A stretch of 32,119 bases of DNA, from positions 1 through 32,119 of IMG/VR virus record IMGVR_UViG_3300030503_000109; one strand, written 5' to 3'. This stretch comes from a virus. How positions within the stretch are numbered: the first letter of the stretch is position 1; each line of letters starts with the position of its first letter. A program made the position numbers and the translations under genes. The notes beneath the pieces are model-generated. The model was not told the DNA's origin, ran no database searches, and saw only the letters and a list, made by a program, of their open reading frames with translations. Below are positions 2,924 through 19,801 of this stretch, one piece after another.

Positions 2924-3988
2924 ATGATCTCGATCCAGTCATCCTCGCTGAAAGAGGCTCTCAAGCGAGTCGGCCCGTCGGTCGATCGGCGCTCACATAT
3001 CGCCGCGTTTCACTCCGTCAGGATTCGCGTCGATGGCGCTTTCTTCGAAATGATCGCGGCCGGCGTTGACGGACAGGCTATGTATCGCGAGGAGCGCTTG
3101 GGCGACCCCGACAATGCAATGGACATCTGCGTCCACGCCGACCGCCTTGCGCCTCTATTGAATGTGTCTGGTGACTATATCGACGTCGCGCTTCAGAAAA
3201 ATTCACGGGCGAAGTTTTCGACGGCAGGCTATGCCGTGACGGTTCCGACGCTCCCCGGCGAAATCCTGCCGCTTACGAAGGCCGACGGTGACGTTATCGC
3301 CGACTTCGACGTCGTCGGACTGTCGGAGTTGGTATCGAGCGTGGCCTTCGCTGCCAATGAAAAGGACATCCTCGAGTTCTGCCGCGGCGTATGGATCGAA
3401 TCGGATGGCGCGCAACTCACGGCTACGGCAACGAACGTGAATATGTTGGCGACGGCGCAGGTAACGACCCGTGCTCCAGAGTTCTCGGTTCTCCTGCCGT
3501 CTCGGGCTGCTGAGTTGCTTGTCGACATGGAGCCGAACCGCCTCGTCATCACGAAATCGCATCTGACGGCCTTCCACGGAAACTCCGAGCTCGTGCTCAA
3601 GCCGATGGCGACGAAGCCGATCAACTGGCGCAGCGGCCTACCGGCACTGAAAAACGCAATCTCATTCGACGCCGAACCGCTTCGCGAAGCTGTCTCGATG
3701 CATCGCTTCTATGGCGACAAGATGGGTTCGGTCAAATTCAGTGCAGAAGGGTCGGAGTGCTCTATCGGGATTGTTGGCCCGGATAACGAGGCAAACATCG
3801 ATCTCGACGCATCTGACGTGGTCGGCGATGAGCCGTTCAACTTCACATTTCGCGGTGACCAGCTCGCAAAGATCCTGACGCGTGCGCCGGCGGAAACGGT
3901 CACCTTTTATTGGGATGCAAAAAAGCCCCGCGCATTCCTCGTTCAAAACGGAAATTGGCGGGGCGTCGTCTCGCCGCTCATCGTGTAA
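2924..3988 (+). CDS. DNA polymerase III beta subunit-like sliding clamp
   Basis: The 354-residue product is close to the usual 366 of bacterial DnaN. The three-domain clamp pattern is recognisable: LKEALKRVGPSVDRRSHIA at the start, an internal VSSVAFAANEKDILEFCRGV segment with ATATNVNMLA, and a C-terminal domain ending in a beta hairpin (GNWRGVVSPLIV). The C-terminal end differs from the host-type MPMRL terminus. Clamps are dimeric rings that tether polymerases and other partners to DNA. No phage polymerase is visible in the window, so it may recruit host polymerase or redirect clamp-binding proteins; that is inference. It sits immediately upstream of the gene block that leads into the retroelement. 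Confidence 0.85.
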   Translation: MISIQSSSLKEALKRVGPSVDRRSHIAAFHSVRIRVDGAFFEMIAAGVDGQAMYREERLGDPDNAMDICVHADRLAPLLNVSGDYIDVALQKNSRAKFSTAGYAVTVPTLPGEILPLTKADGDVIADFDVVGLSELVSSVAFAANEKDILEFCRGVWIESDGAQLTATATNVNMLATAQVTTRAPEFSVLLPSRAAELLVDMEPNRLVITKSHLTAFHGNSELVLKPMATKPINWRSGLPALKNAISFDAEPLREAVSMHRFYGDKMGSVKFSAEGSECSIGIVGPDNEANIDLDASDVVGDEPFNFTFRGDQLAKILTRAPAETVTFYWDAKKPRAFLVQNGNWRGVVSPLIV

Positions 3989-4000
3989 CGGAGATTCACC

Positions 4001-4333
4001 ATGAACCTGATTCTTCAAGCAGCCTCCAAACGTGCCGGCCGTGCAGCCAAGCGTGGCGACATGCGTGCGGCCGACGAGGTCGAGCTCGACTACATCAAGA
4101 GCAATGTGCCGCTGTACTCGGCCCGTGCCGATGACGTCATCCCGGGCGAATGCACTCGCATGTGCCGCGGCGCCGGGCCGAACGGCGAAACGCGCCTCGA
4201 ATGGCTCCTGCCAAACGGCAAGACGGTCTATTCAGACATGGATGCGACTGTGCTGCCGGAGTACGAGGACGACGCATGCGGGATGTTTGTGGGCCTGCAT
4301 CCGGGCCGAATCTTCGAGCTGCTCGAGGCGTGA
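4001..4333 (+). CDS. Hypothetical protein, 110 aa
   Basis: It starts 12 nt after the clamp stop with an ACGGAGA ribosome binding site. The N-terminus is basic (RAGRAAKRGDMRAADE). The rest is a small acidic soluble domain containing CTRMCRG and a predicted beta region. No family was recognised. Spacing suggests co-transcription with the clamp. The 73 bases that follow hold no gene and no clear promoter. Confidence 0.6.
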   Translation: MNLILQAASKRAGRAAKRGDMRAADEVELDYIKSNVPLYSARADDVIPGECTRMCRGAGPNGETRLEWLLPNGKTVYSDMDATVLPEYEDDACGMFVGLHPGRIFELLEA

Positions 4334-4406
4334 TCTGTCTCGAATGGTTCACTTTGAAAGTAGTTTAACGGCGGTCCGATTGGGTCGCTCTTTCCAAGGA
4401 GATGCA

Positions 4407-4772
4407 ATGCAACAGCTTCAGATTCCCCCGCTGGCCGAAGGCGAAGTATATGTAGGCGCGATCGGTGACAAGAGCGGCGATTTCCATCACGTGATTCTGC
4501 TGCCGGGTGATAGCGGCTATGCATCGTGGCAAGCCCAGATGGATTGGGCCAAGAGCATCGGCGGCGATCTGCCGACGCGTGTCGAGCAGGCCATGTTGTT
4601 CGCCAACTTTCGCGATCAGTTCGAACGGGATGCCTACTGGTCGAACACGCTGGATACCGATCCCAGCTATAGCGGCTGGGCCTGGTTTCAGTACTTCGGC
4701 TACGGCTGCCAGAGCAGCGGCCCTCAGTCCACCGAGTTGCGCGCCCGTGCCGTCCGCAGATTGTCAATTTAA
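4407..4772 (+). CDS. DGR target protein 1, small C-type-lectin-fold (DUF1566-like) variable protein
   Basis: The 121-residue protein starts at ATG 4407 behind AAGGAG. It has no signal peptide or membrane segment, so it is probably cytoplasmic. The middle holds the conserved GGDLPTRVEQAMLFANF block and an AYWSNT motif, as in DUF1566/formylglycine-generating-enzyme-like C-type lectin folds. The last 30 residues are the variable region, ending in the invariant ELRARAVRRL. Relative to the template, codons for Tyr, Asn and Tyr have become Phe, Tyr, Gly, Tyr, Cys, Ser and Ser. In this fold such residues cluster on one exposed ligand face. The gene is a paralogue of the next one. The ligand is unknown. 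Confidence 0.88.
   Translation: MQQLQIPPLAEGEVYVGAIGDKSGDFHHVILLPGDSGYASWQAQMDWAKSIGGDLPTRVEQAMLFANFRDQFERDAYWSNTLDTDPSYSGWAWFQYFGYGCQSSGPQSTELRARAVRRLSI
4673..4763 (+). repeat. DGR variable repeat VR1
   Basis: These 91 bases align without gaps to the template repeat at 5798-5888. All differences but one are at template adenines: 9 adenines are changed to T, G or C, and one T reads A (template TAC, VR1 AGC). The 3' part (TTGCGCGCCCGTGCCGTCC and the bases after it) is identical in VR and TR. It is GC-rich and fits the initiation-of-mutagenic-homing element of DGRs. Confidence 0.95.
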
Positions 4773-4799
4773 TCATTCGTCCATTTAGGAGCATCCGCA

Positions 4800-5258
4800 A
4801 TGACGATCACGCTTGAGGCCATCAAGGTCGAGCACACGAAAGTCGCCGAAATGATCGCGGCTTTTGAGAAGCAGGCCGCGACCACCGAGTATCACGTCAA
4901 AGCCGCGGCGATCACGCTCGCGCCAGGCGAGCGCTATGCCGGATTGATTCTCGGCGAAAACGGCGAAGCCGACTATCACCTGATCCTTTTGCCTGGTGAA
5001 GTCGAAGACATCGATTGGGAGGGTGCCGGCAAGTGGGCTGCCGCACTCGGCGGTGCACTGCCGACACGCCGCGAGCAATCGCTGCTGTTTACGAACCTGA
5101 AGGTCGAATTCCAAGGCTCTTGGTACTGGTCCGGTCAGCAGCATGAGGCGGACAGCGGCTGGGCCTGGTGTCAGGACTTCCGCCACGGCCACCAGTACAG
5201 CGGCCCTCAGTCCACCGAGTTGCGCGCCCGTGCCGTCCGCAGATTAGTTCTTCAGTAA
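4800..5258 (+). CDS. DGR target protein 2, C-type-lectin-fold (DUF1566-like) variable protein
   Basis: The 152-residue protein starts at ATG 4800 behind AGGAG. An N-terminal helical segment of about 35 residues (EAIKVEHTKVAEMIAAFEKQ) is absent from target 1 and may mediate oligomerisation. The lectin-like part follows, with YHLILLPGE, GGALPTRREQSLLF and WYWSGQ. The variable region (codons within 5156-5245) ends in ELRARAVRRL. No secretion signal is present. The shared scaffold and separate variable sequences show that one template serves both genes. Confidence 0.9.
   Translation: MTITLEAIKVEHTKVAEMIAAFEKQAATTEYHVKAAAITLAPGERYAGLILGENGEADYHLILLPGEVEDIDWEGAGKWAAALGGALPTRREQSLLFTNLKVEFQGSWYWSGQQHEADSGWAWCQDFRHGHQYSGPQSTELRARAVRRLVLQ
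5156..5245 (+). repeat. DGR variable repeat VR2
   Basis: The 90 bases align gap-free to the template. Seven adenines are substituted (A to G three times, A to C four times) and no non-adenine base differs. VR1 and VR2 differ from each other at most of these sites, so they were mutagenised independently. No clear hairpin or cruciform lies just downstream, unlike the Bordetella phage prototype. Confidence 0.95.
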
Positions 5259-5276
5259 TTTGATTATTTATCCCCC

Positions 5277-5654
5277 ATGGCCCTGCATACCCAACTACCG
5301 ATCTACAAGGCCGCGTACCGGCTGCTTGATGTAGTGACTGACATTGTCACCAACATGGAGCGCGCCTTTAAGCGGTCGATCGGCGAGAAGATCAGCGTCG
5401 AATGCCTCGAGATCACTGTGCTGGTGTTTCGCGCCAACGTCGCGGCCAACAAGACGCCGCATCTGTCGGAGCTGCTCGAGCGCTTGCAGGTGATCGAATT
5501 GATGCTTCGACTAGGTATGGACAAGAAGAAGATCATGCGTCCCGCGTATGCGGCCGCAGTCGAGCTCACGACCAGCATCGGGAAGCAGTGCAATGGGTGG
5601 AAAAACGCCGCAAATAATCGCCCGCATCGTGGAGGCCAAGGTTTTCATGACTGA
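5277..5654 (+). CDS. avd: Accessory variability determinant (Avd-like) protein of the DGR
   Basis: The 125-residue protein is almost entirely helical with evenly spaced basic residues (YKAAYRLL, RAFKRSIGEKI, LRLGMDKKKIM, IGKQCNGWKNA). This is the pattern of Avd and the related four-helix-bundle S23 (23S rRNA intervening sequence) proteins. Avd forms a pentameric barrel that binds the DGR RNA and the reverse transcriptase and is needed for mutagenic retrohoming. Its place between the last target gene and the template is canonical. The stop (5652-5654) overlaps the preferred RT start at 5647, suggesting coupled translation. No strong Shine-Dalgarno precedes the ATG. Confidence 0.88.
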   Translation: MALHTQLPIYKAAYRLLDVVTDIVTNMERAFKRSIGEKISVECLEITVLVFRANVAANKTPHLSELLERLQVIELMLRLGMDKKKIMRPAYAAAVELTTSIGKQCNGWKNAANNRPHRGGQGFHD

Positions 5655-6987
5655 GCGATCTTTCAATCTGGTCGTGCCGCTGGCTCACAAGGCCACCGCC
5701 ATGCGCATCACGGATACCGACCGCCAGCGTGCGGATCGGTCCGGCGCAGTTTCCCAACTGAGCAATCAGATGGGCGACGTAGATAGCACGATTTCTCCGG
5801 CTGGGCCTGGTATCAGAACTTCAACAACGGCAACCAGTACAGCGGCCCTCAGTACACCGAGTTGCGCGCCCGTGCCGTCCGCAGATTGGAACAATGGCTT
5901 TACGTTCGCCGATCTGGTCGAGGCCTACCTCGACTGTCGGCGCACCAAACGCAACAGCGCGACAGCTCTCGCCTTCGAGGCGAATCTCGAGCACAACCTG
6001 AGGCGCCTGTACGACGAGCTGGCAGATGGCAGCTATGTGCCGGGCCGCTCGAAGTGCTTCGTCATCCTGCGCCCGAAGCCCCGCGAAGTTTGGGCGGCAG
6101 AATTCCGCGATCGCATCGTGCATCACTTGGTGTACAACCGGATCGGCCCACGCTTCGAGCGCGCATTCATCGCCAACTCGTGCGCGTGCATTAAGGGCCG
6201 TGGCACGCTGTATGCCGCACATCGCCTCGAGGCGATGATTCGCTCGGTCACCCAGAACTGGTCACGACCGGCGTTCTACCTGAAGTGCGATCACGCGAAT
6301 TTCTTCGTCAGCATTAACAAGCCGATCCTGCTCGAGCTGCTACTTGCGAAGATATTCGAACCCTTCTGGCGTGCGCTGACCGAGCTCGTGCTGATGCACG
6401 ATCCACGGGCTGACTTCGAATACCTCGGTGATCCGGTGCTGCTGGAGTTGGTCCCGCGCCACAAGCGCCTGATTGAGCAGCCCGCACATCTCGGCTTGCC
6501 AATCGGGAATCTGTCGAGTCAGTTTTTCGCCAACGTACTGCTCGACGTGCTCGACCAACGCGCAAAGCATGAACTCGGCGCGCGGCATTACATCCGCTAC
6601 GTCGACGACTTCATTTTTCTCCACGAATCGGCTGACTGGCTGAATTCGGTGTTGGCCGACGTAACGGCCTTCCTGCCGGAGCGGCTCGGCGTTAGCCTAA
6701 ATCCCAGCAAGACAATCTTGCAACCGGTCTCGCGCGGCGTCGATTTTGTCGGACAGGTCATCAAGCCATGGCGACGTTCAACGCGACGCCGCACGGTTAG
6801 CGAGGCAGTCAGGCAAATCAGCAGCGTCGGTGCCGCCGATTTCCTCGCCGTATCGAACAGCTACTTTGGTTTAGTCGGTCAGGCGTCGAGCAGCCATCAC
6901 GACCGCGCGAAGCTTGCGAACGCTGCACGCCGGCGCGGCCACGCGGTAAATCGTGCACTGACGAAGACCTATCGAGGTTCGCTATGA
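5647..6987 (+). CDS. DGR reverse transcriptase
   Basis: This retron/DGR-type reverse transcriptase copies the template RNA with adenine-directed errors. With the start at ATG 5647 (GGAGG 11 nt upstream, ATGACTGA overlap with avd) it has 446 residues. The recognisable RT domain begins near residue 81 (NNGFTFADLVEAYLDCRR). Motifs visible are KPREVWAAEFRDRIVHH, the metal-binding Asp215 in KCDHANFF, the DGR-type GLPIGNLSSQ (283-292), the catalytic YVDD (Asp320 and Asp321) and a thumb region. The first 80 codons include the template repeat in another frame. Alternative in-frame starts are ATG 5701, ATG 5770 and a GTG at 5872 within the template, the last giving a more typical length of about 371. 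The end is certain, the start is not. Confidence 0.92.
   Translation: MTERSFNLVVPLAHKATAMRITDTDRQRADRSGAVSQLSNQMGDVDSTISPAGPGIRTSTTATSTAALSTPSCAPVPSADWNNGFTFADLVEAYLDCRRTKRNSATALAFEANLEHNLRRLYDELADGSYVPGRSKCFVILRPKPREVWAAEFRDRIVHHLVYNRIGPRFERAFIANSCACIKGRGTLYAAHRLEAMIRSVTQNWSRPAFYLKCDHANFFVSINKPILLELLLAKIFEPFWRALTELVLMHDPRADFEYLGDPVLLELVPRHKRLIEQPAHLGLPIGNLSSQFFANVLLDVLDQRAKHELGARHYIRYVDDFIFLHESADWLNSVLADVTAFLPERLGVSLNPSKTILQPVSRGVDFVGQVIKPWRRSTRRRTVSEAVRQISSVGAADFLAVSNSYFGLVGQASSSHHDRAKLANAARRRGHAVNRALTKTYRGSL
5798..5888 (+). repeat. DGR template repeat TR
   Basis: It matches VR1 over 91 bases and VR2 over 90. Read in the target frame it would encode WYQNFNNGNQYSGPQYTELR, with four AAC codons and several TAY codons. 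Replacing their adenines cannot give ochre or amber codons at the AAC sites. Eleven adenines lie in the seven mutable codons. It lies between avd and the RT core and, for most candidate RT starts, inside the RT reading frame. Confidence 0.95.
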
Positions 6988-7079
6988 ACGGCCTGGGATG
7001 GTTCGCGCTCACCATATTGGTCGCAGCCGCAGTGGGTGTGGGGTTGGCACTTCTCGGTGAACGGATGAAACGGAAATAG
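6984..7079 (+). CDS. Small membrane peptide, 31 aa
   Basis: The start overlaps the RT stop (ATGA). The product has one hydrophobic segment (WFALTILVAAAVGVGLALL) and a basic tail ERMKRK, so it would sit in the inner membrane with its C-terminus inside. The tight overlap supports translation. Any link to the DGR is unproven. Confidence 0.45.
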   Translation: MNGLGWFALTILVAAAVGVGLALLGERMKRK

Positions 7080-7080
7080 C

Positions 7081-8118
7081 GTGGCCGCTTACTACAACGA
7101 GATCGACCCATACGCCGCGCAGTGGCTGCGCAACCTGATCGCCAAGGGGCATATCGCCGCCGGCGAAGTTGATGAACGGAGCATAGAGGATGTTCGACCA
7201 GACGACCTTCGCGGATTTACCCAGTGCCATTTCTTCGCCGGAATCGGTGTCTGGTCTTACGCGCTTCGACTCGCCGGCTGGCCTGATGACCGACCTGTTT
7301 GGACCGGTTCCTGTCCGTGCCAACCTTTCAGCGCGGCAGGCAAAGGACTTGGGTTTGCTGACGAGCGGCACCTCTGGCCAGCGTGGCACTGGCTCATCCA
7401 GGAGCGTAGCCCTGCAACCCTCTTTGGCGAACAGGTTGCAAGCAAGGACGTCGACCCTTGGATCGACCTTGTTTTCGATGACCTGGAAGCCTTGGGTTAC
7501 GCCTGCGGGGCGACACCTTTCCCGTCTGCGGGCGTCGGTGCGCCGCACATCCGCGACAGAACGTACTTCGTGGCCGACGCCGACTACGCGCGATCACAAG
7601 GACGGAAGCGAGTGCGCCAACGTACCGCTGAACGCACTGCTCGGTCGAGTGGCGTGGCTGGCATCGTGGCCGACGCCGAACGCGGGGCCGCAGAACGACA
7701 ACGACTCAACGTGGGAAGCGCGGCGAGCGGAGTGCGCAGCTCGTCACGGGAACAACGGATTCGGGATGACGCTGGGCATGGCTGCGACGCTGGCGGGATG
7801 GCCGACGCCGCAGACGTCAGACTCGACGGGCGGTGGTCAAGCGAAGCGAGCGATGGGCGAGACGCGGCACGGATCGAACCTGAACGACTTCGCTTTGTTG
7901 AGCGTGTCGAACCAGCCGGCCCGACTAACGGTTTCTGGCGAGCTGCTGACTGGCTGCTCTGCCGGGACGAAAAGTGGCGGCCAGTTGAACCCGGCACATT
8001 CCCGCTGGCTGATGGGGCTCCCGCCCGTGTGGGACGACTGCGCGCCTACGGTAACGCGATCAACGCGCAAGCGGCAGCCGAGTTCATCCGCGCAGCGCGC
8101 GAAGCAATCGAACAATGA
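7081..8118 (+). CDS. dcm: C5-cytosine DNA methyltransferase
   Basis: The protein starts at GTG 7081, two nt after the previous stop, with an ACGGAAAT ribosome binding site. Motif I is FFAGIGVWSYALRLAGW. Motif IV is GSCPCQPFSAAGKG with the catalytic Cys80. Motif VI is GEQVAS and motif VIII is HIRDRTYFVAD. The C-terminal RLRAYGNAINAQAAAEF corresponds to motifs IX/X and closes the fold. The family transfers methyl from S-adenosylmethionine to cytosine C5. A phage enzyme of this kind usually protects DNA from host restriction, and no cognate nuclease is present. The middle (about residues 170-270) is Arg/Ala/Ser-rich and looks like a shadow of the other reading frame at 7190-8122. Confidence 0.9.
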   Translation: MAAYYNEIDPYAAQWLRNLIAKGHIAAGEVDERSIEDVRPDDLRGFTQCHFFAGIGVWSYALRLAGWPDDRPVWTGSCPCQPFSAAGKGLGFADERHLWPAWHWLIQERSPATLFGEQVASKDVDPWIDLVFDDLEALGYACGATPFPSAGVGAPHIRDRTYFVADADYARSQGRKRVRQRTAERTARSSGVAGIVADAERGAAERQRLNVGSAASGVRSSSREQRIRDDAGHGCDAGGMADAADVRLDGRWSSEASDGRDAARIEPERLRFVERVEPAGPTNGFWRAADWLLCRDEKWRPVEPGTFPLADGAPARVGRLRAYGNAINAQAAAEFIRAAREAIEQ

Positions 8119-8122
8119 GTGA
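7190..8122 (+). CDS. Overlapping gene nested in dcm, WPTP-repeat phage protein of unknown function
   Basis: The 310-codon frame is offset by one base from dcm and overlaps it for 929 bases. It has its own ATG with GGAG (7178-7181) 8 nt upstream. The product has three WPTP motifs (SWPTPTTRD, SWPTPNAGP, GWPTPQTSD) and a Trp-rich C-terminal box, HSRWLMGLPPVWDDC. I recall similar proteins annotated next to phage methyltransferase genes, but their function is unknown to me. Between about 7600 and 7900 third codon positions are far more GC-rich in this frame than in the dcm frame, so this frame looks selected there. It could instead be a conserved shadow of dcm. Support is from codon bias, the ribosome binding site and motif regularity. 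Confidence 0.6.
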   Translation: MFDQTTFADLPSAISSPESVSGLTRFDSPAGLMTDLFGPVPVRANLSARQAKDLGLLTSGTSGQRGTGSSRSVALQPSLANRLQARTSTLGSTLFSMTWKPWVTPAGRHLSRLRASVRRTSATERTSWPTPTTRDHKDGSECANVPLNALLGRVAWLASWPTPNAGPQNDNDSTWEARRAECAARHGNNGFGMTLGMAATLAGWPTPQTSDSTGGGQAKRAMGETRHGSNLNDFALLSVSNQPARLTVSGELLTGCSAGTKSGGQLNPAHSRWLMGLPPVWDDCAPTVTRSTRKRQPSSSAQRAKQSNNE

Positions 8123-11397: not shown

Positions 11398-12015
11398 TTA
11401 CGCCGGCACGCTCGAGACAGCGGCAGCCTGATTCACGGGAAACGCTTCAATCACCCGCGCAATCATATGGTCTTGCACGTTCGCAATCGGCAATGCGGGC
11501 TTGCCGATGTGTGCGAGCAGAGCGGCGTGATTCAAGCCGGGCGGCACATCCGGAACGACGTCGTTGCCGTTCTTGTATAGGTGCACCGGCACCTTTGCCA
11601 GAAGCGTGCGCACGCCCATGCCGGAGCTCACGCGCGGAGGCTCGAACCCATACACGGCCGCCGGCGGCTTGCCGGCCAGCGTCAGCGACACTGCAGCCAG
11701 AATTGCGATGGCCGCGCCAAGCGAATGCCCGACGAGGGTAACGGGCTGCTCGCCGATCGCGCTTATCACGGGCAACGCAATCGCCTGCCACGCGCCCCAA
11801 AAACCGCGATGCACGTCGCCGACACCTTCCACGGACACCAGGCGAATATCCAAATCGGCGAGCCAGCCTGGAACGTTGTCGGTGCCCGGGAAGGCTACGA
11901 CGAGCCCCGCCGTCGTCTGCCGCACGATAGCGCGCGATGCGCTGTCAGCCTTCCCGATGTCCGGTGCCGCGCTATACGCTTCCTGCGCCAGCAGGGCATA
12001 GTCGCGGGGCGTCAT
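11398..12015 (-). CDS. Class 3 lipase-family alpha/beta hydrolase
   Basis: The 205-residue protein has the lipase 3 pattern: FPGTD near residues 42-46 (oxyanion region), VHRGFWGAW, the nucleophile elbow GHSLG with Ser98, an acid in NGNDVVPD (Asp152 or Asp156) and His183 in QDHMI. There is no signal peptide, so it would need the lysis proteins to reach the envelope or act in the cytoplasm. It is the last gene of the leftward late block, next to attP. A part in lysis or in lysogenic conversion is possible; neither is shown. Substrates of the family are acylglycerols or phospholipids. Confidence 0.82.
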   Translation of the reverse strand: MTPRDYALLAQEAYSAAPDIGKADSASRAIVRQTTAGLVVAFPGTDNVPGWLADLDIRLVSVEGVGDVHRGFWGAWQAIALPVISAIGEQPVTLVGHSLGAAIAILAAVSLTLAGKPPAAVYGFEPPRVSSGMGVRTLLAKVPVHLYKNGNDVVPDVPPGLNHAALLAHIGKPALPIANVQDHMIARVIEAFPVNQAAAVSSVPA

Positions 12016-18208: not shown

Positions 18209-18289
18209 ACCATTTGGCTTCGCGAATGCGTCTGCTACCATTTGCCGCCACGCAGCACCTATTTTGACCTCTGCACAAGGCGGATACAC

Positions 18290-19801
18290 TTGAAACTGCT
18301 TATCGGACTTATTTTGTCGCTGGCTTTTGCTGGCATCTGTCAAGCTGCGCAAGGCCAGCGTCCCGAATTCCATTTTACGCCGTTACATGGCTGGATAAAT
18401 GACCCTAACGGGATGTTCGAAGAGAACGGAATTTACCACCTTTACTACCAGTACTACGGTGGGGGCTGGGAACTCAGTGACGGCCGCTTTAAGAACGGCT
18501 TGGACTGGGGGCCAATGCAATGGGGCCACGCCACCAGTACTGATCTGATGCATTGGCGCCAGCAAAGCGTGGCTATTCTGCCCGATAAACGTATAGCAAA
18601 TCGAGAAGTCGAAGGGATGGCCTATTCAGGGAGTGTGGTCCTCGATAGTCAGAATACTAGCGGCTTCGGAAGTAAGGCGAATCCTCCGCTAGTCGCAGCG
18701 TACACGGCGGCCGACACTTTTGGACCTGGCAGCGGTCAGCGTCAGGCGTTGGCATATAGCCTCGACCACGGCTACACGTGGAAAAAATATGCCGAAAACC
18801 CCGTCCTTCCATACAACAACACGGCGGACTTTCGTGACCCTAAAGTGTTTTGGGATGAAGCCCGATCGCGATGGTCAATGGTCGTCACGTGCGGAGACCA
18901 TTTGTGCTTCTTTCGATCATCCAATCTAAAACTGTGGACTCCATCGGGTCGGTTTGGTGATGCCTTTGCGAAGGACGAGGCACCTTGGGAATGCCCCGAT
19001 CTGTTTCCCCTGCAAACAAAGAAGGATGGCCGTCTCGTAACTAAATGGGCCCTTCTCGTCAGCGTTCAACATGGTGCGCCATCGGGTTCGTTCGGGACGC
19101 GCTATTTCATAGGCGATTTCAATGGTGAGACGTTCACCCCTGATTCATCAGATTCAACGCCTCAATGGCTCGACTACGGAAGCGATTTTTATGCTGCACG
19201 GACATTCGAGCCATATCCTGCAGGTCCCTCAAAGCGAGTCTTGCTAGCATGGATGAGTAACTGGACGTATGCCCATGTTTTACCCGCTCAGAACTATCGC
19301 GGGGAAATGAGCGTTCCAAGAATCATCTCGCTTAAGAGCACCGCGCGCGGTTATTACCTCGCCCAGCGGCCGGCGCCATCCATCATGAAGCGGTTGCACA
19401 ACGAAAATGTGTCCATCAATCTTGATGGATCAATGTTCAACCAAATCAAGAAGGTCAATTCTGTTGCTGTCCTGAATGTCCATTTCAAACCGACAGGAGG
19501 GCGCAAGAACCTAAGCGTTGAGATGGCTCAAGTGAGCGGCGGCAAGATCAAGATTACCTACTCGGAAAAAAACTCGACTCTCACCGTCGATCGTAGCGAC
19601 TATGCTGGATATGCATTCCCGAATCCTACGAACGTTATATCGGCGCCAGTACCTCAGACTGACGAAGGCCTGAAACTTTCAATTTTGTTAGACCGGACAT
19701 CGATGGAGATATTTGCCGACGACGGGAAAGTGACCTTCACAAATCTGATTTACCCTAAAAACTTAGGTCCTTATATCGTCACCGCCGGAATGGGTCGTTG
19801 A
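18290..19801 (+). CDS. Secreted GH32 beta-fructosidase (levanase/inulinase-like)
   Basis: The start is TTG 18290, with AAGGCGG shortly upstream; it gives the signal peptide MKLLIGLILSLAFAGICQA and a 503-residue protein. The GH32 five-blade propeller is complete. WINDPNG carries the nucleophile Asp38, FRDP the transition-state Asp183 and WECPD the acid/base Glu234. The C-terminal beta-sandwich ends with SMEIFADDGKVTF. Enzymes of this family hydrolyse sucrose, levan or inulin, and the sequence does not separate these. The DNA is more AT-rich than neighbouring genes, a sign of transfer. It sits between tail-fibre and lysis genes on the opposite strand and ends 14 nt from a convergent gene. It could feed the lysogen or strip levan from cells. 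Confidence 0.92.
   Translation: MKLLIGLILSLAFAGICQAAQGQRPEFHFTPLHGWINDPNGMFEENGIYHLYYQYYGGGWELSDGRFKNGLDWGPMQWGHATSTDLMHWRQQSVAILPDKRIANREVEGMAYSGSVVLDSQNTSGFGSKANPPLVAAYTAADTFGPGSGQRQALAYSLDHGYTWKKYAENPVLPYNNTADFRDPKVFWDEARSRWSMVVTCGDHLCFFRSSNLKLWTPSGRFGDAFAKDEAPWECPDLFPLQTKKDGRLVTKWALLVSVQHGAPSGSFGTRYFIGDFNGETFTPDSSDSTPQWLDYGSDFYAARTFEPYPAGPSKRVLLAWMSNWTYAHVLPAQNYRGEMSVPRIISLKSTARGYYLAQRPAPSIMKRLHNENVSINLDGSMFNQIKKVNSVAVLNVHFKPTGGRKNLSVEMAQVSGGKIKITYSEKNSTLTVDRSDYAGYAFPNPTNVISAPVPQTDEGLKLSILLDRTSMEIFADDGKVTFTNLIYPKNLGPYIVTAGMGR

Follow-up and report, generated by a model that had tools for sequence, protein, structure and literature searches.

How does a diversity-generating retroelement (DGR) choose the point at which its mutagenic cDNA begins when its template repeat (TR) runs almost directly into the conserved domain of its reverse transcriptase (RT)? 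In BPP-1, cDNA synthesis is primed by an adenosine of the spacer that lies 3′ of the TR, and it starts within IMH* (PMC12875486). The DGR analyzed here lies in a viral sequence record 32,119 bases long, referred to below in its full length as the window, and it has no spacer at this position: the gap from the TR to the conserved RT domain is about 11 nt.

Results

A temperate phage carries a complete two-target DGR

The window carries repressor, sliding-clamp, integrase and contractile-tail genes, a gene content that identifies it as a temperate myophage with a DGR region like that of Burkholderia phage Magia (MT701587). A potential DGR was reported in the genome announcement of that phage (PMC7883833), and the DGR as such was thus already known. 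Magia shares with the window the same gene order, lectin-fold targets and Avd, and the two RTs are 77% identical. It differs in having a third, remote variable repeat (VR) in gene 57 and a TR with 27 adenines. Neither an RNA nor a permuted order is described in the Magia paper (PMC7883833).

An earlier note on the window DNA, made from the sequence alone, had described the cassette as a complete DGR. This identification holds: we found a DGR-type RT, an Avd, adenine-specific change from TR to VR and a C-type-lectin fold in the targets, and re-mapping placed the TR, both VRs, avd and the RT gene on one strand (Table 1). The RT contains the LPIGNLSSQ (IGxxxSQ-type) and YVDD motifs to which the note had drawn attention, and the profile search that it proposed returned phrog_1423 and PF00078, with BPP-1 bRT as the closest solved structure (8ub7, E 1.5e-47). 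Our own structure model of the RT was of medium confidence (pLDDT 72) and was set aside. The avd product matches phrog_3206, 'Avd protein of DGR', at 1.5e-25 and PF22296 above its cut-off; a match to NCBIfam NF033474 falls below the cut-off of that family. These results support a temperate-phage DGR that is complete, with two cis targets and one TR. The earlier description omits the RT-15 RNA (5616-5798), the location of the TR within an open RT frame and the poverty of the TR in adenines.

Table 1. Features of the DGR cassette, in window coordinates
Feature	Position	Strand	Description or evidence
Target gene 1	4407..4772	+	ORF, 121 aa, Lcl_C / C-type-lectin-like; VR1 at its end
VR1	4673..4763	+	91-base gap-free TR match
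Target gene 2	4800..5258	+	152 aa; N-terminal helix and Lcl_C / C-type-lectin domain
VR2	5156..5245	+	90-base gap-free TR match
avd, accessory variability determinant	5277..5654	+	phrog_3206, PF22296
RT-15 RNA (RF03018), structured 5′ domain of the template RNA	5616..5798	+	Rfam 165.1 bits against a gathering score of 82
Helix strand a1 (CAAUCUG)	5664..5670	+	Single-stranded in Rfam model; covariation with 5882-5888
Invariant G adjoining a1	5671	+	G in 138/138 and 33/33 loci; candidate priming nucleotide
DGR reverse transcriptase	5701..6987	+	phrog_1423 3.3e-107, PF00078
TR	5798..5888	+	Gap-free alignment with VR1 and VR2; 19 adenines
Helix strand a2 (CAGAUUG)	5882..5888	+	TR 3′ end; covariation with a1

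The two targets are homologous to each other, and in both the VR ends shortly 5′ of the stop codon. Their resemblance to the Lcl C-terminal domain is weak by sequence and clear by fold: PF07603 matches target 1 at E 0.0023 and target 2 at E 5e-5, both below the cut-off, and the AF2 model of target 2 (pLDDT 93) finds the Legionella Lcl C-terminal domain (8q4e) as its best PDB fold in Foldseek, with C-type lectins next. Since the targets are small, contain nothing recognisable as a tail module and map to the early region, a role as tail adhesins is without positional support. In BPP-1, by contrast, the target is a tail fibre, whereas the targets in the window stand apart from the tail genes.

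Several other genes of the window were also recorded. Directly upstream of the DGR, on the + strand at 2924-3988, lies a gene for a DNA polymerase sliding-clamp-like protein (phrog_947, 6e-32). Two long + strand ORFs in different frames, 7081-8118 and 7190-8122, overlap by about 930 bases and match separate phage DNA-methyltransferase families (phrog_363, 6.6e-90; phrog_1008, 1e-37). A GH32 levanase-like enzyme with a signal-peptide-like N-terminus (18242-19801, +; PF00251 5e-81, phrog_21583) is encoded next to tail and lysis genes and may be a cargo gene. A class 3 lipase-like protein (11398-12015, -; PF01764 8e-15) adjoins the integrase.

Variation is concentrated at template adenines

Realignment reproduced the gap-free matches of VR1 and VR2 to the TR over 91 and 90 bases. 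VR1 differs from the TR at 10 positions, 9 of them TR adenines; the tenth, a T-to-A change at TR index 41, is the single non-adenine difference within these alignments, as previously noted. All 7 differences of VR2 fall on TR adenines, and a 91st base of VR2 is also mismatched (5888, G to A). The counts of nine and seven adenine substitutions given earlier stand, whereas the accompanying total of 11 adenines holds only for the codons chosen there, the whole TR containing 19. The 3′ identity that had been described is likewise present: the last 30 or more bases before 5888 match, and the TR, VR1 and VR2 are mutually identical from index 58 to 90. A search for a further VR on both strands of the window yielded none, the next best match being 56/90 as against 89-90/90.

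The same bias, which greatly exceeds what chance would give, extends through the family. We collected 484 RT relatives from viral contigs and examined the best 80 of these 484 together with 80 loci from bacterial genomes; 152 RT relatives from the two sources had a detectable TR-VR pair. Among these 152 loci, 4087 of 9659 TR adenines (42%) were changed in the VR as opposed to 75 of 22832 other bases (0.33%), so that the spread over all template bases named in the earlier note as counter-evidence was not seen. It is conceivable in principle that paralogous lectin genes simply duplicated and underwent gene conversion, producing the repeats with no reverse transcription at all, and the homology of the two targets and the near identity of the 3′ half of VR2 with that of the TR fit such an origin. 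However, 98% of the substitutions over the 152 loci lie at TR adenines, a bias that refutes this idea, and avd and RT are always present; we give it practically no weight.

Mutation also depends on position. Counted relative to G5881, adenines upstream of -24 are each mutated in mostly 30-70% of VRs, and those from about -16 to +3 in a few per cent. Identity between TR and VR stops between +4 and +7, which is inside strand a2 of the helix described below. A GC-rich hairpin with a 4-nt loop, a feature of the BPP-1 target, was not found after the VRs of the window, and family-wide a qualifying hairpin follows 20 of 320 VRs. The difference between IMH and IMH* that marks a BPP-1-type target site is also absent from the window, where TR, VR1 and VR2 are the same at index 58-90. 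Some relatives of the window DGR have VRs beyond the first two, located several kb away from the cassette (L010 805, L015 3636, L053 4343, L082 6039, L110 3392 and others), and judging by ORF size these lie in small ORFs that resemble the cis targets instead of in large tail genes.

An RNA domain on the 5′ side of the template

The interval between avd and the TR is occupied by a full-length match to the Rfam family RT-15, which runs from inside the 3′ end of avd to the start of the TR. The stop at the TR start recurs in 10 of 10 relatives examined, and RT-15 is also present in 4 of 4 hold-out phages. We further searched for RT-15 by itself, without reference to an RT, in 398 genomes each of the families Burkholderiaceae and Pseudomonadaceae (family names inferred from the centre loci, L083 and L117). 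Matches above the cut-off were obtained in 27 genomes of each sample, and avd and RT adjoined the RNA in all 56 above-cut-off loci that were examined. A class-wide sample, which was sparse, gave a match in its centre genome alone.

BPP-1 (NC_005357) resembles the window in having avd, TR, RT, adenine-specific change and a C-type lectin target. It lacks RT-15, and its order is avd-TR-144 nt spacer-brt, with the Rfam Phage_DGR RNA (RF03022) matching the spacer 3′ of the TR, as opposed to the spacerless avd-RT-15-TR-RT of the window. The TR also adjoins avd in four further DGR phages, and in these as in BPP-1 a spacer of 135-165 nt precedes the RT. In Bacillus phage BalMu-1, the RT-14 RNA (L231 1295-1438) fills exactly the TR-RT interval of a standard DGR, which suggests that RT-14 is a spacer RNA of the BPP-1 type. 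Neither RF03022 nor RT-14 has a match at E 1 in positions 3900-7100 of the window. Given an RNA 5′ of the TR here and a 3′ spacer in the DGRs used for comparison, this clade has its structured RNA on the 5′ side and is missing the spacer. We therefore infer that RT-15 is a substitute for the 3′ spacer, in an arrangement that resembles that of a retron.

Retrons are arranged as a1-G-msr-msd-a2. The window cassette is similar to a retron msr-msd-RT unit in that a structured 5′ RNA is followed by the template and then the RT, and in that an a1:a2 helix lies beside an invariant G; it is unlike a retron in its DGR-type RT, its TR template with VR targets and its Avd. RT-15 was reportedly first described by Weinberg et al. 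in 2017. The description paper is cited in PMC8143477, and the Rfam entry (RF03018) is labelled just 'RT-15 RNA', sRNA. Our literature search, which did not take in the primary description of RT-15, returned nothing linking this RNA to the template of a DGR or to base pairing at a TR end. DGRs whose TR overlaps the RT ORF at its 5′ or 3′ end were recorded in 2012 as structural group 3 of DiGReF (PMC3521204), which also lists multi-VR DGRs in Burkholderia; the sections consulted describe no RNA domain or TR-end pairing for group 3.

Covariation supports a helix between RT-15 and the TR 3′ end

A covariation scan of 138 sequences ranked the pair 5664 x 5888 third, behind two known RT-15 pairs. 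These positions can pair in 134 of 138 loci (permutation mean, 66), and all four Watson-Crick types occur (CG 61, UA 29, GC 29, AU 8), together with UG 7. On a tree of the RT proteins, the two positions change together on 11 branches, where 1.84 are expected (p<1/2000; first of 295 columns); the neighbouring columns are not significant. In hold-out loci, which did not belong to the discovery set and whose a1 positions were placed by alignment, the terminal pair is formed in 33 of 33 cases, with all four Watson-Crick types among them. Below it lies a variable pair, 5665 x 5887, which is often A-C, and stacked below that is the nearly invariant pairing of 5666-5670 with 5882-5886, with compensated changes at inner pairs in L183 and L165. 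Taken as a whole, the a1:a2 structure is 90.5% paired, shows double changes at 3 of its 7 pairs and was matched by none of 500 shuffles; sliding it along the alignment lowers pairing to 24-40%. The minimum-energy fold of the window RNA includes the helix, and the stability of that RNA relative to shuffled sequences (z -1.66) is not significant. The Magia sequence fits the family alignment. A different partner was also considered, in which UCUGGU in the a1 region pairs with ACCAGA, which is invariant in the TR, as RNAalifold preferred for 30 sequences; this pairing is conserved, and we do not favor it because it shows no double changes. These data support an a1:a2 helix by which RT-15 would clamp the 3′ end of the TR.

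Could the element nevertheless work in the manner of BPP-1, with a priming structure 3′ of the TR inside the 5′ part of the RT coding sequence and RT-15 as a separate device, for example one that regulates RT translation or terminates the cDNA? BPP-1 primes from its 3′ spacer and terminates upstream of its TR (PMC12875486), and RT-15 overlaps the region in which RT translation may start. On the other hand, the scan of 138 sequences contained no covarying helix that joins the TR to downstream sequence, whereas RT-15 pairs with the TR 3′ end; no Rfam family matches the window 3′ of the TR, even with the threshold relaxed to E 1; and only the 11 or so nucleotides given above separate the TR from the conserved RT domain. 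We consider a BPP-1-like layout unlikely.

The TR lies within the RT reading frame

The start codon of the RT is uncertain. ATG 5701 is assigned by analogy with Magia, and 5647 is also possible; both lie upstream of the TR, which falls inside the open RT frame. In 136 of the 152 loci this frame crosses the TR without a stop. No ATG, GTG or TTG occurs within 60 nt 3′ of the TR in 107 of the 152. Start codons are found only upstream of the TR in 45 loci, and 29 loci have a start within the TR and none upstream. Judging from this survey of start codons, many members of the family probably translate the TR, at least in part.

Evidence for recent activity and for loss of template adenines

The earlier note had deduced from the mutation pattern that the DGR has been active in both targets. 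One further contig of the same phage, L002, was the only one found when more were sought. It overlaps the window by 10,065 bp and differs from it at two bases, both in VR1: one at index 57, a TR adenine, and one at index 48, an adenine in the TRs of relatives. Both sequences are assemblies, and the two differences could thus in principle be errors. In a second pair, L028 and L029, the RTs are identical and 24 of 184 VR positions differ, compared with 39 of 2389 outside. Other near-identical pairs in the collection are mostly duplicate copies of one prophage and are uninformative on activity. Recent activity of the window DGR is supported by these comparisons of related sequences.

The TR of the window contains fewer adenines than those of most of its Burkholderiales relatives (19 versus 24-28). 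The likely reason, erosion of the template at adenines, is well supported by the sequences in the case of L032, where the TR has lost 13 adenines relative to that of L043 with no other change (P 5e-9 if positions were random) and where each of the 8 TR/VR1 mismatches at a TR base other than adenine coincides with a lost adenine. Half the adenines of the L032 TR (7564-7654) are gone, and it differs from its own VR2 at two positions, both of them A. In this DGR family the 3′ ends of TR and VR are alike, and the TR itself could therefore take up cDNA; the pattern left by such self-overwriting would resemble that of gene conversion from a VR to the TR. Most of the eroded bases recur in both VR1 and VR2, so copying probably continued after erosion.

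A more pessimistic interpretation is that the DGR is decaying, a third of its TR adenines having been lost by self-overwriting and its variation being a relic. The window TR does differ from that of L011 by 8 adenine differences and 1 other, and L032 provides an extreme case. Yet all open frames of the window DGR are intact, the differences between L002 and the window are confined to VR1, and most eroded bases are common to both VRs as just described. Decay thus seems to us an improbable account, and we favor an element that is still at work with an eroded template.

Discussion

Taken together, our analysis points to a recently active DGR with two lectin-fold targets, in which a 5′ clamp formed by RT-15 replaces the 3′ spacer and cDNA synthesis starts at the clamped end of the TR. 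We put the probability of this reading, which is built on comparative sequence evidence, at roughly 85%. The template transcript would consist of the 3′ end of avd, the RT-15 domain, the TR and the RT coding sequence, in that order. Pairing of a1 with the final seven TR bases would hold the 3′ end of the TR against the RT-15 core, near the invariant G5671 and opposite the invariant G5881. By analogy with BPP-1, RT and Avd would bind this RNA, cDNA synthesis would begin at the clamped TR 3′ end, adenines would be misread and the cDNA would then substitute for VR1 or VR2. We infer that it is the clamp that sets the cDNA start. As for the primer, our leading guess is the 2′-OH of an RT-15 nucleotide such as G5671, in the style of a retron. 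Additional RNA structure within the RT coding region is also possible.

A broader proposal, which we regard as tentative and somewhat less probable than its negation, is that one clade of DGRs in proteobacterial prophages has a retron-like permuted RNA, in which RT-15 serves both as clamp and, through a nucleotide of its own such as G5671, as primer, the TR is translated as the N-terminus of the RT, and adenines are slowly exhausted. According to this proposal, the template can be overwritten, and its adenines slowly spent, because the ends of TR and VR are identical.

How the start of mutagenic cDNA is chosen has been known in detail for BPP-1 alone, where the 3′ spacer is responsible. In a large clade of DGRs, this task appears to fall to an RNA located 5′ of the template, which gives a role to the orphan Rfam RNA RT-15 and links DGRs to the RNA layouts of retrons. 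The RT-15 DGR is a compact system whose RNA parts are open to compensatory mutation. Finally, the eroded templates of the window and of L032 raise the question of what shields the template of a DGR from its own enzyme.
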